A program made the translations under genes and the position numbers. Shown piece by piece: positions 55,653 to 61,689 of a DNA stretch of 64,000 nucleotides (position 1 is its first letter; each line of letters opens with the position of its first letter). This stretch comes from Tessaracoccus rhinocerotis (GTDB taxonomy: Bacteria > Actinomycetota > Actinomycetes > Propionibacteriales > Propionibacteriaceae), in NCBI RefSeq assembly GCF_007197885.1, contig NZ_VKKG01000002.1, positions 372,001 through 436,000 on the forward strand. Direction: 5' to 3'. Under the pieces are notes generated by a model, which saw nothing but the letters and a program-made list of their open reading frames with translations, did no database searches and was not told the origin of the DNA.

Positions 55653-55922
55653 TCAGGCCCGGACCTCGAAGTGCTTCGCCCCGGTCGGGTCCAGCTCCGC
55701 GGTCCGGAAGTCGCGCACCCGGGCGCCGGGCGGGCCGTCGGCCATCCAGTCCAGCAGCTGCTCCACGGCGTCCTCCGGCCCCTCGAGTTCGGCCTCGACG
55801 GCGCCGTCGCCACGGTTGCGGACCCACCCGCCGAGACCGAGCCCCTCGGCCCGCAGCCGGGTGCTCCAGCGATACCCGACCCCCTGCACGGTCCCGGTCA
55901 CGATGACATGCACGCGTCTCAT
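55653..55922 (-). CDS. acyP: Acylphosphatase
   Basis: 89 aa, complete. Catalytic R18 (TVQGVGYR) and N36 (GGWVRNRGDG) are in place. It hydrolyses acyl phosphates in the cytosol. Divergent from the SOS operon. Confidence 0.93.
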   Translation of the reverse strand: MRRVHVIVTGTVQGVGYRWSTRLRAEGLGLGGWVRNRGDGAVEAELEGPEDAVEQLLDWMADGPPGARVRDFRTAELDPTGAKHFEVRA

Positions 55923-55942: not shown

Positions 55943-55973
55943 TTGACCACCTGTCGGAGGGTGGGGTTATAGT
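55943..55973 (+). promoter_or_regulatory. SOS operon promoter
   Basis: TTGACC (55943-55948), a 19-nt spacer, and TATAGT (55968-55973). Predicted start of transcription is about 55980, next to the LexA box. Confidence 0.6.
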
Positions 55974-55983
55974 GGGACACGTA

Positions 55984-55999
55984 TCGAACAGTCGTTCGA
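55984..55999 (+). promoter_or_regulatory. LexA (SOS) box
   Basis: TCGAAC, AGTC, GTTCGA: a perfect palindromic half-site pair in the mycobacterial/actinobacterial SOS-box form, 10 nt after the -10. LexA here would block initiation. A further single half-site TCGAAC lies at 56028-56033. Confidence 0.9.
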
Positions 56000-56052
56000 A
56001 TCCGAGGGTCTTGGGGAAGGGCTCGGTTCGAACCGATCGATACACCTGGGCC

Positions 56053-56097
56053 GCTTCGGGTCCGGCGTGGACTCGACCCCTGCGCCGGACCCGAAGC
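56053..56097 (+). promoter_or_regulatory. 15-bp perfect hairpin in the SOS operon leader
   Basis: GCTTCGGGTCCGGCG (56053-56067) pairs with CGCCGGACCCGAAGC (56083-56097) across a 15-nt loop. It lies about 75 nt downstream of the LexA box and about 75 nt upstream of the first start codon. There is no long T run, so it is not a classic terminator. Possible attenuator or structured leader. Confidence 0.7.
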
Positions 56098-56130
56098 TTC
56101 CCGACGAGGGTCGAATCTCTGAAGCACATC

Positions 56131-56150
56131 CCGCCCGGAGCGCCGGGCGG
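56131..56150 (+). promoter_or_regulatory. Second leader hairpin next to the SD
   Basis: CCGCCCGG, AGCG loop, CCGGGCGG; it ends 11 nt before GGGAGG, the SD of the first gene. Its 3' arm region could pair alternatively with the 5' arm of the upstream hairpin. Confidence 0.5.
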
Positions 56151-56172
56151 ACACCGATCCCGGGAGGCCCAC

Positions 56173-56445
56173 ATGCGCAGCTACGAAGAACCGATACACG
56201 TGCTGTTCAGCGATCAACCCAGGCAGTTCATCTGGCGGGGGAGGCTGCTCCTGGTCAAGGAGGTCCAGGGCCGCTGGAGCCGCTCGACGGCGTGGTGGCG
56301 GCACCCGGAGCCCGGCACCGGCGACCTCACCAGGGAGCGCGAGGTCTGGCGCGTCGAGGCCGGCAACGGCTCCCACCGCGGCGTCTACGAACTGGCCCAC
56401 TCCGTGGGCGACGAGGACTGGGTGCTGCAGGCGGTGAGCGACTGA
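56173..56445 (+). CDS. DUF6504 family protein
   Basis: 90 aa, ATG after GGGAGG. Short beta-rich protein beginning RSYEEPIHV and containing FIWRGRLLLVKEV, WRVEAGNG and GVYELAHS. This is the DUF6504 pattern found upstream of dnaE2/dinB genes in actinobacteria. Function unknown; the neighbourhood implies a role in damage-induced synthesis. TGATG overlap with the next gene. Confidence 0.8.
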   Translation: MRSYEEPIHVLFSDQPRQFIWRGRLLLVKEVQGRWSRSTAWWRHPEPGTGDLTREREVWRVEAGNGSHRGVYELAHSVGDEDWVLQAVSD

Positions 56446-56777
56446 TGGCCACGACTGATCCGACGCCGCGCCCAGCGGACCGCTACGTCCACGCCCACCG
56501 GCAGGCCGAGCAGGTGGCGCTGAAGGTGATCTCGGCCTCGCCGCGACGGTTCCGGGGGCGCCACGACGTCTGGGAACTGTTGGGACTGGTCGCGCCCGAA
56601 CTGGGCGAGTGGGCCTCCTTCTTCGGCTACCTGTCGACGCGGGTCGAGGTGGCCGCCGCCGGCGAGCACGCCATCATCAGCGCACGCGAGGCCGACGACC
56701 TGGCCCGTGACCTCGAACGCTTCTGCGTCGACGCCGCCCGCCGCGTCAGACGGGTCGGGGAGAGGGGTGCCTCATGA
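56445..56777 (+). CDS. SAV_6107-family HEPN domain protein
   Basis: 110 aa, all alpha-helical. It matches the SAV_6107 HEPN family: RYVHAHRQAEQVAL near the N-terminus, HDVWELLGLVAPELGEWASFFGY in the middle, AREADDLARDLERFCVDAARR at the end. R13 and H18 make an RX4H motif, the catalytic pattern of HEPN RNases, though it is near the N-terminus here. Coupled to both neighbours (TGATG and ATGA), so it is made with the polymerases. It takes the place that imuA' often holds. Confidence 0.8.
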   Translation: MATTDPTPRPADRYVHAHRQAEQVALKVISASPRRFRGRHDVWELLGLVAPELGEWASFFGYLSTRVEVAAAGEHAIISAREADDLARDLERFCVDAARRVRRVGERGAS

Positions 56778-59700
56778 CGCCCTTCACCCACCTGAGGGTG
56801 GCCTCCGGCTACTCCTTCCAGTACGGCGCATCCCACCCGGGTGCACTGGTGGAGACCGCGGCGGAGCACGGCATGGACACCCTCGCGCTGACCGACAGGA
56901 ACGGGCTCTACGGGGCGGTCCGGTTCGCCAAGGCGTGCCTGAAGGCAGGCATCATGCCGGTGGTCGGGGTGGACCTCGCCATCGGTGCCGGTGGCACACC
57001 GGTGCGCCGCCCCACCGCGGCCCGCGGCGGCCAGTTGCGTGACGAGCGGCTCCCGCGCGCCGTCGTCCTCGCCCGCTCCCGCAGCGGCTGGGGGACGCTG
57101 TGCCAGCTCATCACCCGGGTCCACCTCTCCGGCGAGCGCTCCGACCCCGTGGCCACCGCCGAACTCGTCGGCGCCCAGTGCGCGGGCCGGGACGTCGTCG
57201 TGATGCTCGGCGCGGACTCGCGCCTCGGGGAGCTCGTCGCCGCCGGTGACCTCGACGGTGCCCGCGACGAGGCCGCCCGCTGGCGTGAACTGGTGGGGGA
57301 CTCCCTCGTGGTCGCCGCCACCAACCACCAGACCGGCGGCCGTGGCCCCACCTCGGCGCACCAGGCCGCAGGCATGGTCCACCTCGCCGAGGAGCTCGGC
57401 CTGCGCTCGGTGCTGACGAACATGGTGCGCATGGCCCGCCGCGAGCAGGCCGCCACCGCCGACGTCCTCGACGCCGCTCGCAGGCTGGTGCCGCTGGACC
57501 TGCGCAACGTGGATCGTCGCAACGCCGAGGGCCACCTGAAGTCCACGCCGGCGATGTCGGAGGCGGCCCGGGAGGTGGCCCGCCTGGCCGGGGTCGACGT
57601 CGAGGCCCTGCTCGGCCGCACCCGGGAACTCGGCGAGGAGTGCAGGCTGCACCCCATCGACGACATCGGGCTGGGGGAGATCCGGCTGCCCGAGTTCGAG
57701 ACCCTCGGCACCACTCCCGAGCAGGCCCCGGCGGTGTTGCGGGCTCGTTGCGAGTCGGGGATCGCCGAGCGATACGGCACCCCGGCGCGCGAGGTGCTGG
57801 ACCGCCTCGACGACGAACTCGCCGTGATCGGCAGGCTCGGGTTCGAGTCCTACTTCCTCACCGTCGCCGACGTGGTGGGCCTAATCGGCGACCTGGGCAT
57901 CCGGTGCGCGGCCCGTGGCTCGGGAGCAGGGAGCCTCGTGAACTACGCACTCGGGGTCTCCGGGGTGGACCCGATCCGGCACGGCCTCCTGATGGAGCGG
58001 TTCCTCTCGCCGCTGCGGGTGGCGCTGCCGGACATCGACCTCGACGTCGAGTCCCACCGTCGTACGGAGATCTACGAGCGGATCCTCGAAGTGTTCGGCG
58101 GGCAGCGGGTCTCCTGCGTCGCGATGCTGGAGACCTACCGCGTGCGCCACGCCGTCCGCGACGTCGGCGCCGCCCTCAGCCTGCCGCCGGTGGAGGTGGA
58201 CGCCATGGCCAAGGCGTTCCCCCACATCCGCGCCCGTGACGCCCGCGCGGCCCTGCGGGACCTCCCCGAGCTGCGGGCCGCCGGACTGGGCGAGAAGCGG
58301 CTCGAGGTGCTGTTCGAACTGGTGGAGTCCCTCGACGGACTGCCCAGGCACATCGCCCTCCATCCGTGCGGCGTGCTGCTGAGCGACTCCTCGCTGGGTC
58401 AGCGCACGCCCATGGAGGCCAGTTACGGCGGCTTCCCGATGAGCCAGTTCGACAAGGACGACGTCGAGGACCTCGGGCTGCTGAAGCTGGACGTCCTGGG
58501 CATCCGGATGCAGTCGGCCATGGCGCACGCGCTCGACGAGGTGGCACGTACCCCCGAGGCGGGTCCGGTGCCTGACATCGACGCCCTGGCGCCGTTCGAC
58601 GACGACGCCACCTACGAGATGATCCGCAACCGACAGACGCTCGGCTGCTTCCAGATCGAGTCCCCCGGGCAGCGGGAACTGGTGGGCAAGTTCGGCCCGG
58701 AGACCTTCGCCGACATCATCATCGACATCTCCCTGTTCCGGCCCGGCCCCGTGAAGTCCGACATGGTCACCCCGTTCCTGGAGGCGCGGCAGGGCTGGCG
58801 GGAACCTGACTACCTCCACCCCAGCTTCATCCCCGCCCTGGAGCAGACCGGTGGGGTGGTGGTGTTCCACGAACAGATCATCATGCTGATCAGCATCGCC
58901 ACCGGCTGCTCGCTCGCCCAGGGCGACGAGGTGCGCCGTGCGCTCGGGGACAAGGAGGGCCAGGAGCAGGTCCGCGAGTGGCTCTACCCGAGGGCCAGGG
59001 AACGTGGCTACGAGGAGGCCACCATCGACGAGCTGTGGTTCATCCTGGTCCAGTTCGCCTCCTTCGGATTCTGCAAGGCCCACGCCGCCGCGTTCGCGCT
59101 GCCCACCTACCAGTCGGCGTGGCTGAAGCGGCACCACCCGGCCCACTTCATCGCAGGCGTCCTCACGCACGACCCGGGGATGTACCCCAAGCGGCTGCTG
59201 CTGGAGGAGGCCCGCCGCATGGGGGTGGAGGTGCTCGGCCTGGACGTCAACCGCAGCCACGGCACCTACCGGGCCGAGCACCTGCCGCCCGACGGCTGGG
59301 GGATCCGCCTGTCGCTGGCGGACGTGAAGGGGATCAGCGGGACGGAGGTGGAGCGGATCGTCGCGGGCCAGCCCTACGCCTCGCTCAGCGACTTCTGGAA
59401 CCGGGCCAGGGTGGACGAGCCGGTGGCCCGCAACCTCGTCCTCGCCGGGGCGTTCGACTCCTGCTACGGCATCGGTGCCCGCGCCGGGGTGCAGTCCCGC
59501 ACCCGGATCACCAGACGGGACCTGCTGCTGGCGCTGGCGGACCTGCAGCGCCTGCGCCGCGCCGACAAACGCACCGCCACCAGGTCCCGGGGACGGCGTC
59601 GGACGCAGGTGGTCGCCGACGACCCGGGTTCGCTCGCCCGCGCCCAGAGCCGAGCCGCGGAGGTGGCCGAGCAGTTCGTGCAGGGCGCCCTGGACTTCGA

Positions 59701-60517
59701 CGACGGCGAGGCCGAGTGCGACCTCGTCGCCACCGGGCTGCCGGAGATGGACGACGACGAGCGACTCAAGGCCGAGCTGGAGATCCTCGGCCTGGACGCC
59801 AGCCACCACATCATGGAGCGCTACCTGCCGTTCCTGTCCGCCATCGGGGCCACCAGCTCGCGCACCCTCCTTGAGCGGCGCAACCGCTCCGAGGTGCTCG
59901 TGGCCGGGGTGAAGGTGGCCACGCAGACGCCGCCGGTGCGCTCCGGGCGGCGGGTGGTCTTCCTGACCCTGGACGACTCCACCGGACCCGTCGACGCCAC
60001 CTTCTTCGAGAACGTCCAGGGCCCGTACGCCGCGACGGTGTTCAACAGCTGGATGCTGCTGGTACGTGGCGTGATCCGCCGCACCGGACCGCGGGGCATC
60101 TCCATCCGCGCCACCGGGGCGTGGGACCTCGGGCACGTCCACGAGGCCTGGGCGAGTGCGGTCGAGGGCGGCGCGACGCCCGAGGAGGCCATGGGTGCGG
60201 TGACCGAGATCATCGAGGAGGTGCCCGAGGGCTACGGCATCGTCGGCGAGTGGATCCCCGACGAGTGGGGGGACGACGAGGAGCGCCGGGTCGCCCGGGC
60301 GAGGACGCTCGCCGGCGACGGTCAGGGGCAGGACGAGGAGCCGCCGCCGGATCCGCAGGACCACACCCGCGCGGGCGGGATGGGCCGGCGCCGGGTGCTG
60401 GTGCACGCCAGCGGGTTCAAGCAGTCGCCGTACGCCGACGTCAAGCCCGCCGGCACCGGCGCGGCCGAGGCGCCGCGCAAGCTGTGGCACTCCAGCCCGG
60501 GGAGCGCGGGACGATGA
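56774..60517 (+). CDS. dnaE2: Error-prone DNA polymerase III alpha subunit DnaE2
   Basis: 1247 aa, somewhat longer than many DnaE2. PHP domain at the N-terminus (HLRVASGYSFQYGASHPGALVE; LALTDRNGLYGAVRF); polymerase core with LPDIDLDVESHRR carrying catalytic aspartates at about residue 415; the finger region FQIESPGQREL; an HhH region and a C-terminal OB-like fold (VLVAGVKVATQTPPVRSGRRVVFLTL), then a charged tail with RVLVHASGFKQSPYADVKPAG. It copies damaged templates after SOS induction. ATGA overlaps both upstream and downstream genes. Confidence 0.93.
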   Translation: MTPFTHLRVASGYSFQYGASHPGALVETAAEHGMDTLALTDRNGLYGAVRFAKACLKAGIMPVVGVDLAIGAGGTPVRRPTAARGGQLRDERLPRAVVLARSRSGWGTLCQLITRVHLSGERSDPVATAELVGAQCAGRDVVVMLGADSRLGELVAAGDLDGARDEAARWRELVGDSLVVAATNHQTGGRGPTSAHQAAGMVHLAEELGLRSVLTNMVRMARREQAATADVLDAARRLVPLDLRNVDRRNAEGHLKSTPAMSEAAREVARLAGVDVEALLGRTRELGEECRLHPIDDIGLGEIRLPEFETLGTTPEQAPAVLRARCESGIAERYGTPAREVLDRLDDELAVIGRLGFESYFLTVADVVGLIGDLGIRCAARGSGAGSLVNYALGVSGVDPIRHGLLMERFLSPLRVALPDIDLDVESHRRTEIYERILEVFGGQRVSCVAMLETYRVRHAVRDVGAALSLPPVEVDAMAKAFPHIRARDARAALRDLPELRAAGLGEKRLEVLFELVESLDGLPRHIALHPCGVLLSDSSLGQRTPMEASYGGFPMSQFDKDDVEDLGLLKLDVLGIRMQSAMAHALDEVARTPEAGPVPDIDALAPFDDDATYEMIRNRQTLGCFQIESPGQRELVGKFGPETFADIIIDISLFRPGPVKSDMVTPFLEARQGWREPDYLHPSFIPALEQTGGVVVFHEQIIMLISIATGCSLAQGDEVRRALGDKEGQEQVREWLYPRARERGYEEATIDELWFILVQFASFGFCKAHAAAFALPTYQSAWLKRHHPAHFIAGVLTHDPGMYPKRLLLEEARRMGVEVLGLDVNRSHGTYRAEHLPPDGWGIRLSLADVKGISGTEVERIVAGQPYASLSDFWNRARVDEPVARNLVLAGAFDSCYGIGARAGVQSRTRITRRDLLLALADLQRLRRADKRTATRSRGRRRTQVVADDPGSLARAQSRAAEVAEQFVQGALDFDDGEAECDLVATGLPEMDDDERLKAELEILGLDASHHIMERYLPFLSAIGATSSRTLLERRNRSEVLVAGVKVATQTPPVRSGRRVVFLTLDDSTGPVDATFFENVQGPYAATVFNSWMLLVRGVIRRTGPRGISIRATGAWDLGHVHEAWASAVEGGATPEEAMGAVTEIIEEVPEGYGIVGEWIPDEWGDDEERRVARARTLAGDGQGQDEEPPPDPQDHTRAGGMGRRRVLVHASGFKQSPYADVKPAGTGAAEAPRKLWHSSPGSAGR

Positions 60518-61689
60518 GTGCACCGGTGGTCATGCACGTGGACATAGACGCGTTCTACGCCTCCGTGGAGATGGCCCGGCACCCGGAGTTGCGGACGGTG
60601 CCGATGTTCGTCGGCGGCTCCAGCCGCGGCGTGGTGCTCTCGGCGAACTACCCGGCCCGGGCCTGGGGCATCACGTCGGGAATGCCCTCCACCAGGGCCC
60701 GCAGACTGTGCCCGCAGGTGGCGGTCATCCACCCCGACTTCGACCGCTACGGCGCCGTCTCCGACGCCATCGAGGAGATTTTCTGTGCCATCACCAACCA
60801 GGTGGAGATGGTCTCCATCGACGAGGCGTTCATCGACGTCACCAGTGCCCTGCGACGGCTGGGCGGCGACCCGGTGGCGATCGCGGAGGGATTGCGCGCC
60901 CAGGTGATGGACGAGCAGGGCGTGGCGTGCTCCGTCGGCATCGGCCCCAGCAAGTTCATCGCCAAGCTCGCCTCCAAGGCCGCCAAACCCGACGGGCTGC
61001 GGCTGGTGCGTCCCGACGACGTCATCGAGTTCCTGCACCCGCTGCCGGTGGAGGCCATCTGGGGCGTCGGGGAGGTGACCGCCGAGAAGCTGCACAGGCT
61101 CGGCCTGAAGTCGGTGCGCGACGTGGCCAACACCCCGAGGACGACGCTGCAGCGGGCGCTCGGCGACGGCTTGGGTGCGCTGCTGTTCGACCTCTCCTGG
61201 GGCCGCGACGAGCGGTCCGTGATCGCACGCGAGCCGGCCGAGCACAGCATCGGTTCCCAGGAGACCTTCTCGCGCGACACCGACGACGTGGAGGTCGTCA
61301 CCACCGAGATCCTGCGGATGGCCGAGCGGACCGCCTCACGGATGCGGGCCCAGAAGATGGTCGGCCGGGTGGTGACGCTGTCGGTGCGGTTCGCGGACTT
61401 CACCACCATCACCCGCACCGGGACGCTGAAGGCTCCCACGGACCTGACGGGTGACGTCCACGCCGAGGCGATGCGGCTGTTCCGGCGCCTGAACCTGCAG
61501 CGCGCCAGGATCCGGCGGGTGGGGGTGCGGGTGGAGAAGTTGGTGCCGAAGGAGGAGACCTACCTGCAGCCTGCCCTGGACGAGCCGGAGGTGGGGTGGG
61601 CGCAGGCGGAGGCGGCGATGGACCGGGTGGTGCTGCGGTTCGGCCCGACGGCGGTGCGGCGGGCGAGGCTGACGCGGAAGGCGTCCTAG
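60514..61689 (+). CDS. dinB: DNA polymerase IV (DinB)
   Basis: 391 aa Y-family polymerase with intact active site: MHVDIDAFYASVE (metal-binding Asp, steric-gate region) and SIDEAFIDV (Asp, Glu). It therefore is not the catalytically dead ImuB usually paired with DnaE2. The little-finger domain follows from about residue 240. I see no obvious QLxLF clamp motif at the C-terminus. ATG overlaps the dnaE2 stop (ATGA). Confidence 0.92.
   Translation: MSAPVVMHVDIDAFYASVEMARHPELRTVPMFVGGSSRGVVLSANYPARAWGITSGMPSTRARRLCPQVAVIHPDFDRYGAVSDAIEEIFCAITNQVEMVSIDEAFIDVTSALRRLGGDPVAIAEGLRAQVMDEQGVACSVGIGPSKFIAKLASKAAKPDGLRLVRPDDVIEFLHPLPVEAIWGVGEVTAEKLHRLGLKSVRDVANTPRTTLQRALGDGLGALLFDLSWGRDERSVIAREPAEHSIGSQETFSRDTDDVEVVTTEILRMAERTASRMRAQKMVGRVVTLSVRFADFTTITRTGTLKAPTDLTGDVHAEAMRLFRRLNLQRARIRRVGVRVEKLVPKEETYLQPALDEPEVGWAQAEAAMDRVVLRFGPTAVRRARLTRKAS

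Follow-up and report, generated by a model that had tools for sequence, protein, structure and literature searches.

The window analyzed here is a stretch of 64,000 nucleotides of the Tessaracoccus rhinocerotis genome, and all coordinates refer to it. An operon of four genes lies on its plus strand. The genes encode a DUF6504 protein (56173..56445, start ATG at 56173; Pfam PF20114, E 3.7e-14), a SAV_6107-like HEPN protein (56445..56777; Pfam PF18726, E 1.4e-16), a DnaE2-type error-prone DNA polymerase III alpha subunit (56774..60517; Pfam PF07733 and others), and a DinB-type Y-family polymerase, Pol IV (60514..61689; Pfam PF00817 and PF11799). The top NCBIfam match of the third product is an error-prone DNA polymerase, with a score under the cut-off of that model; the fourth product matches NCBIfam Pol IV, PRK02406, above its cut-off. 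ImuA' was absent from the Pfam and NCBIfam annotations of these four genes. An acylphosphatase gene (55653-55922) is divergent from the operon. In actinobacteria, damage-induced mutation is driven by error-prone DnaE2/DinB operons, whose control is usually described as transcriptional. The operon in the window is preceded by a leader of about 190 nt (55980-56172), to which the analysis below is devoted.

The LexA box consensus is TCGAACN4GTTCGA. A perfect actinobacterial LexA (SOS) box, TCGAACAGTCGTTCGA (TCGAAC-AGTC-GTTCGA, 55984..55999, plus strand), begins 10 nt past the -10 hexamer TATAGT (55968-55973, plus strand), about where transcription should start. The initial annotation had reported this box, correctly, and had paired the -10 with TTGACC (55943-55948, plus strand) across 19 nt. 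Both hexamers are present; however, the upstream element is more likely of the RecA-NDp/PafBC type, CTGTCGGAG-N8-TATAGT (55951..55973, plus strand). An excerpt of PMC5656591 gives the RecA-NDp consensus as tTGTCRgtg-8-TannnT. Against this consensus the window element agrees in seven of nine letters, including all five capitals, with exact spacing. Excerpts of PMC6789036 and PMC8223512 ascribe the motif to the activator PafBC, and the latter describes some genes that carry RecA-NDp and an SOS box together. Of 70 family regions, 48 contain TGTCR-N10..14-TANNNT within the upstream 400 nt, a count made without a chance control. The T. rhinocerotis genome itself has four WYL-domain matches, including an adjacent pair on contig C48 that resembles pafBC. 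The operon is probably under LexA repression and, judging from the promoter, putatively under PafBC activation. Work on RecA-NDp/PafBC promoters is mainly mycobacterial; the window shares with them the TGTCGG-N8-TATAGT geometry.

The leader (55970-56180) folds at -107.6 kcal/mol, compared to a mean of -88.0 for shuffled sequences (z = -4.45; none of 200 shuffles was as good). The minimum-energy fold has three hairpins 5' of the Shine-Dalgarno sequence, all on the plus strand. The 5' strand of the first, P1 (55981..56043), is the LexA box region; this hairpin had been missed in the initial annotation, which saw the other two. Its lower part, P1a, consists of an outer helix GTATCGA:TCGATAC and an inner helix GTTCGAA:TTCGAAC, identified from the fold and from pairing in relatives; the box doubles as part of its 5' strand. 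The apical hairpin P1b, CCGAG...CTCGG around CTTGGGGAAG (56010-56019), is predicted from single folds. The second hairpin, P2 (56053..56097), is the strong one noticed initially, and we count 18 bp in it including G-U pairs, with the loop ACTCGACCC (56071-56079). A small internal loop away lies the basal helix P2b (56048..56102), formed by GGG (56048-56050) and CCC (56100-56102). Just 3' of P2 are CTTCCCG (56097..56103), a candidate anti-Shine-Dalgarno segment predicted by the ensemble to pair with the Shine-Dalgarno region, and GGGTCGA (56108..56114), which complements TCGACCC in the P2 loop (56073-56079) and is the candidate strand of a pseudoknot, PK1. The Shine-Dalgarno region of the first gene is CGGGAGG (56161..56167), with GGGAGG at 56162-56167.

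The third hairpin (56131..56150) is present in the window and is not conserved. A hairpin of at least 7 contiguous pairs occurs at its place in six of 41 family leaders with the GGGTCGA strand, in unrelated sequences, and of 70 regions only two carry its own sequence pattern, the window and, imperfectly, L040 (genome G026). The alternative pairing GTCCGGCG:CGCCGGGC, proposed earlier between the second and third hairpins, is rejected for this reason, and has no comparative support. In Rfam 15 (4227 families), neither the window leader nor 20 diverse related loci had a match at the gathering score.

A DNA search matched 29 of 60 relatives. A DUF6504 protein search, with a single query sequence that diverged copies could escape, matched 78 of 198 Propionibacteriaceae genomes, and the upstream regions of 70 were examined (L039-L108, including L102, which has a weak DUF6504 match only). 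A strong hairpin with a UCGACCC loop was found in 45 of the 70 regions; GGG(G)AAG precedes it in 45 of 45 and GGGTCGA follows it in 40 of 45. In 18 of the 25 regions lacking the hairpin, an SOS half-site lies 13-39 nt from the start codon, leaving no room for a long leader. Among the matches listed and checked for the hairpin, carriers include Tessaracoccus coleopterorum, T. massiliensis, T. lapidicaptus, an uncultured Arachnia, Propioniferax innocua, and two Enemella species. TCGACCC was present in 48 of the 70 regions, and 39 of these formed a core set. Regions without GGGTCGA were left out of it, as were L054, L064, and L105, so that GGGGAAG and GGGTCGA are constant in the core set through our choice of leaders.

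Three side observations were made in genomes of the family. In L092 and L096 (genus g16), GGG(G)AAG and a P2-like stem are kept, and the UCGACCC loop and GGGTCGA are both absent, as if jointly lost. Four genomes of the window's own genus (G021, G033, G018, and G024) have the operon without the long leader and also have no HEPN_SAV_6107 match. Another genome contains, besides a normal copy, a second, degenerate copy of the leader 5' of a purD-like gene (L151, G013:C107:5088-5139).

RNAalifold on a mixed MAFFT alignment put the inner pairs of P2 wrongly, and P2 was therefore counted with the arms anchored on the loop. For 40 distinct family arms, from the core set and five added leaders (three of which also enter the class-wide count), 386 of 400 cells were paired, compared to a mean of 267.4 and a maximum of 305 with shuffled 3' arms; the loop length, 9 or 10, was chosen for each leader and not refitted in the shuffles. 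An earlier count with the loop fixed at 9, which disallowed 10-base loops, gave 310 of 396 cells against 248 shuffled. Two-sided changes occur in nine of ten P2 pairs across the 40 arms. In a MAFFT alignment of 16 genus sequences (A4), 94.5% of cells were paired compared to at most 51.9% when slid, and 15 pairs had two-sided changes compared to 5.7 in shuffles. P2b is GGG:CCC in all 16 rows of A4 and, being invariant, is uninformative; the adjoining pair varies between GC, AU, and GU. No two-sided change was seen for P1b in A4.

For P1a, the SOS-side strand was paired with its own 3' region or with those of other leaders. Over 39 family leaders, the own pairing averaged -20.2 kcal/mol and the swapped pairing -14.0 kcal/mol; the own region was better in 33 leaders, no better than the swapped mean in six, and a median of 10.5% of swapped regions paired as well. 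This advantage suggests that the LexA operator region is also selected at the RNA level. The initial annotation had named a lack of covariation in relatives as evidence against a functional leader; strong covariation was found for P2 and P1a. We regard the leader fold itself as near certain.

With an E limit of 0.1, model R1 had matches in 50 of 198 family genomes. Some of these are chance matches (those at L144, L150, and L152 looked like chance). Model R2, with a limit of 0.01, had matches in 28 of 394 class genomes. Of 391 genomes of the order, 30 contain a strict three-part pattern; 29 of these belong to the family, and the sole match beyond it, in G351, was taken as chance from its sequence. 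Looser patterns, an SOS box followed by TCGACCC, matched 150 and 161 genomes in two scans of 355 class genomes each; many of these matches are due to chance, and many look like ruvC starts or coding sequence. Among 120 loci listed from the pattern scans, 21 had the hairpin with an SOS signal and two the hairpin without one; none of the three viral loci among the 120 had a stem above 5. The class set contained 44 loci (L365-L408), of which L399-L401 had no candidate and L395, L402, L406, and L408 were dropped as weak or chance. The remaining 37, together with L296-L300, L302, and L303, provide 44 leaders from 12 further families; L304 was judged to be coding sequence. The ruvC-like starts (GTGCGCGTGCTCGGCGTCGACCC and variants), many of which lie shortly past an SOS-box-like site in class genomes, perhaps reflect a separate conserved SOS signal.

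When these 44 leaders were combined with 42 family leaders, 592 of 616 P2 cells were paired over 77 distinct arms from 13 actinobacterial families. The control, in which arms were swapped and the loop refitted, had a mean of 444 and a maximum of 467. All eight pairs have two-sided changes, in 10 to 37 rows each. The constancy of the UCGACCC loop beyond the family is partly by construction, most such leaders having been found through that motif.

Of 18 stretches checked, 15 encode DnaE2 and/or DinB downstream of the leader and on its strand, and in nine of the 18, from seven families (f3, f10, f12, f28, f31, f43, and f44), the order is DUF6504-HEPN-DnaE2-DinB as in the window. Others have HEPN-DnaE2-DinB (L418), HEPN-DinB (L416), DnaE2-DinB (L424), DUF6504-HEPN-DnaE2 (L431), DnaE2 (L425), or DinB (L429). 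The three stretches with neither polymerase have HEPN only (L423), DUF6504 and HEPN only (L427, 4 kb), or none of these genes (L430). The leader also stands before a methyltransferase-like gene followed by DinB in four loci of genus g23 (L140, L142, L146, and L148, named by eye; a DUF3040-like ORF is also seen by eye downstream in L146 and L148), and ahead of DinB alone in L143. As a side observation, L149 (g25) has a methyltransferase and a DUF3040-like ORF, by eye, with no DinB in view. Separately, L145 (G073:C3:4765-4886) is a complete-looking leader, with SOS box, GGGGAAG, P2, and GGTCGAG, located 5' of rplU/rpmA-like genes; none of the four operon genes occurs within its 5.3 kb stretch.

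The PK1 helix never varies in the genus alignment A4, which therefore carries no covariation information for it, and PK1 is a candidate on complementarity. Beyond the family, GGGTCGA occurs 3' of P2 in 13 of 44 leaders, mostly in f3 (six of 10) and f37 (six of seven), and is absent from 31, though the UCGACCC loop is present. The chance expectation, from shuffles of all 86 leaders, is 0.026 per leader, or about one in the 44; with six-base matches allowed, 21 of the 44 leaders match, compared to 7.0 expected. Among 12 leaders of families f10, f11, f14, f24, f31, and f43, P2 is followed by a GGGGAAG hairpin in 11 and by CTTCCC in 10. Consistent GGGGAAG:CUUCCC pairing could not be demonstrated within the Propionibacteriaceae, where exact CTTCCC occurs in 10 of 42 leaders. 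A leader peptide with GGGGAAG as its ribosome site was considered and dropped; no start codon was seen by eye at a constant place.

Some leaders carry additional elements. Two or more copies of GGGTCGA are found in four of the 44 leaders beyond the family. Three to five consecutive GGGTCGA-like copies past P2 were noticed in L299 and L405 (f37) and L369 (f3), and in L299 TCGACCC also lies directly 5' of the Shine-Dalgarno-like GGGAG. In L374-L376 (f28), two hairpins with UCGACCC loops appear, by eye, in tandem in one leader. An extra small hairpin with TCGCGGC in its loop is seen between the SOS box and P2 in f12, f37, f44, and a few others (for example in L297, L300, and L098); the string TCGCGGC is present in 15 of 86 leaders.

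The Shine-Dalgarno analyses covered 35 family leaders (ensembles) and 37 leaders (duplexes); those without a full-length start, a Shine-Dalgarno match, or the PK strand were skipped. In the full-leader ensembles, a predicted partner of the Shine-Dalgarno sequence lies 22-35 nt past the start of the loop, just 3' of P2, in 28 of 35. The mean unpaired probability of the Shine-Dalgarno sequence was 0.21 compared to 0.29 in shuffled leaders, a modest difference, and it was lower than in shuffles in 25 of 35; for the window leader the values are 0.02 and 0.26. In duplexes, the segment between P2 and PK paired with its own Shine-Dalgarno sequence at a mean of -16.95 and with those of other genera at -13.82, and the own sequence was better in 28 of 37, though 36.6% of other-genus sequences paired at least as well. 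The advantage holds in four of nine genus groups (own genus, g17, g16, and g20), whereas it is reversed in g9, g10, g13, g21, and g23. The complementarity covaries in part. In g17, the partners change together, from CUUCCCCAC:GUGGGGAG in four leaders to CUCUCC:GGAGAG in two. They also do so in g16 (Enemella), where the segment is GGCCGC.CCGGG with the Shine-Dalgarno partner CCGGGgaGCGGCC. Among all windows of a leader, the post-P2 segment is the best Shine-Dalgarno partner in 17 of 37 leaders and within the best 5% in 21. It falls outside the best 5% in 16, including the window leader, where 14% of leader windows are as good; in L040, the closest relative, 68% are.

This segment shares bases with the foot of P2 and with P2b, and for most of the genus it also runs into the start of GGGUCGA, so that pairing with the Shine-Dalgarno sequence and the folded domain should compete. 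The exclusion is less direct in the window, since a short spacer separates CTTCCCG from GGGTCGA there and the two do not overlap. The duplex energies are of like order, at -11.4 for PK1 and from -10.0 (window) to -16.0 (genus) for the Shine-Dalgarno pairing. The complementarity of the post-P2 segment to the Shine-Dalgarno sequence, together with its overlap with the P2 base and the PK strand, leads us to favor a translational on/off leader. The initial annotation had suggested that the leader may attenuate, delay, or gate translation; gating fits better because of this complementarity, and its general picture of a LexA-type error-prone polymerase operon with a structured, probably regulatory leader is supported.

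Comparison of related sequences establishes helices P1a and P2, as well as the recurring loops and the strand complementary to the P2 loop, and shows that the operon downstream is of the same kind. On balance, we lean toward the view that the leader is a cis-acting structured RNA acting as a translational on/off element of an SOS translesion-synthesis operon in many Actinomycetes. The predicted transcription start lies either immediately 5' of the LexA box region or among its first bases, which would place the operator in the transcript as the 5' strand of P1. P1b with its GGGGAAG loop and P2 with its UCGACCC loop would form next, after which two partners would compete for the segment 3' of P2. 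In the open fold, CUUCCC would close P2b or meet the GGGGAAG loop, GGGUCGA would pair with the P2 loop, and the Shine-Dalgarno sequence would be free. In the closed fold, the segment would pair with the Shine-Dalgarno sequence and shut translation of the first gene. PK1 formation, interconversion of the two folds, and the effect at translation are the steps that we infer. Since RNA polymerase reaches the Shine-Dalgarno sequence only after P1, P2, P2b, and the pseudoknot strand, new transcripts could start open and close later; alternatively, a factor could hold one of the states. A more specific proposal, which we put forward tentatively, is an RNA switch across Actinomycetes in which the LexA operator is the first strand of an aptamer-like domain and loop-strand pseudoknots decide whether the error-prone polymerases are translated.

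The conserved loops could instead be bound by a factor acting in trans, an RNA-binding protein or small RNA that controls stability or translation, with GGGUCGA only modulating access to the loop. The UCGACCC loops that lack GGGUCGA in 31 of the 44 leaders beyond the family, the apparent tandem hairpins in f28, and the multiple GGGTCGA copies in four leaders would suit such a factor. Candidates encoded in the operon are generally unlikely: among 10 leader-bearing genomes chosen as DUF6504-negative, eight are also without HEPN_SAV_6107. We consider this alternative unlikely overall, though worth keeping in mind.

Attenuation of transcription at P2 and release of a short RNA there, the latter proposed in the initial annotation, are improbable. 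A strong GC hairpin, P2 lies close to the 5' end, but it is followed by CTTCCCGA, which has no U-run, so that the usual features of an intrinsic terminator (GC hairpin and U-run) are not both present; no U-run was noticed after P2 in relatives by eye either. Neither attenuation by an intrinsic terminator nor a short RNA ending at this hairpin thus finds support in the sequence.

There is slightly less to be said for a mere mRNA-stabilizing 5' structure, or for an inverted or mobile DNA repeat without a regulatory role, and we consider both quite improbable. The leader is not essential, given that 18 of 70 family operons have a short one, which would agree with a dispensable structure. However, a stabilizer has no need for loops of constant sequence, and stems that are compensated while their loop stays constant, as in 13 families, are difficult to reconcile with a repeat. 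A repeat or mobile element was also rejected on the copy number: the leader DNA had 36 matches at E up to 10 in its own genome, just one of them full length.

Autogenous control by the DUF6504 or HEPN protein binding its own leader, suggested by their frequent position as the first genes downstream, is very improbable, and was rejected as a general answer because eight of the 10 chosen leader-bearing genomes match neither protein (the DUF6504 query being one sequence). The leader also precedes methyltransferase-DinB genes or DinB alone in genomes where neither was found, and SAV_6107 HEPN is marked 'No' in what we take to be the catalytic-motif column of a table excerpted from PMC3710099.

Like translational riboswitches and anti-Shine-Dalgarno leaders, the RNA has a conserved 5' domain, constant loops, covarying stems, and a segment that could pair internally or with the Shine-Dalgarno sequence. 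Unlike translational riboswitches, it belongs to an operon for DNA-damage polymerases, includes a LexA operator in its first helix, and has no match in Rfam 15. The 6C RNA of actinobacteria has C-rich hairpin loops; by comparison, the present RNA has a UCGACCC loop in an mRNA leader and no Rfam match at the gathering threshold. The ImuA'-ImuB-DnaE2 mutasome operons of mycobacteria and others, as described in excerpts of the published accounts, are likewise damage operons with an SOS box, DnaE2, and a Y-family protein. In contrast, the operon here is DUF6504-HEPN-DnaE2-DinB, with no ImuA' annotated and a structured leader of about 190 nt. One earlier survey reportedly lists 224 candidate RNAs. 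Judged from titles and the beginnings of abstracts, no paper on a structured leader of such operons was found, and a term search of PMC2864571 and PMC6429828 gave no passage on SOS, LexA, dnaE, or dinB motifs, not every term having been searched in both. Structured regulatory leaders are known as a kind; what appears to be new is the RNA family, its link to the operon, and the operator's double use.

For annotation, the leader adds an RNA family that appears to be new, and it exemplifies a DNA operator that seems to be selected at the RNA level as well. If the proposed switch is true, one set of bases signals DNA damage two times, first as DNA to LexA and then as RNA, and the operon has transcriptional and translational checkpoints against mutagenesis. 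A leader common to 13 families would add a post-transcriptional layer to the control of mutagenic polymerases, and how bacteria delay or limit these polymerases would become directly testable.
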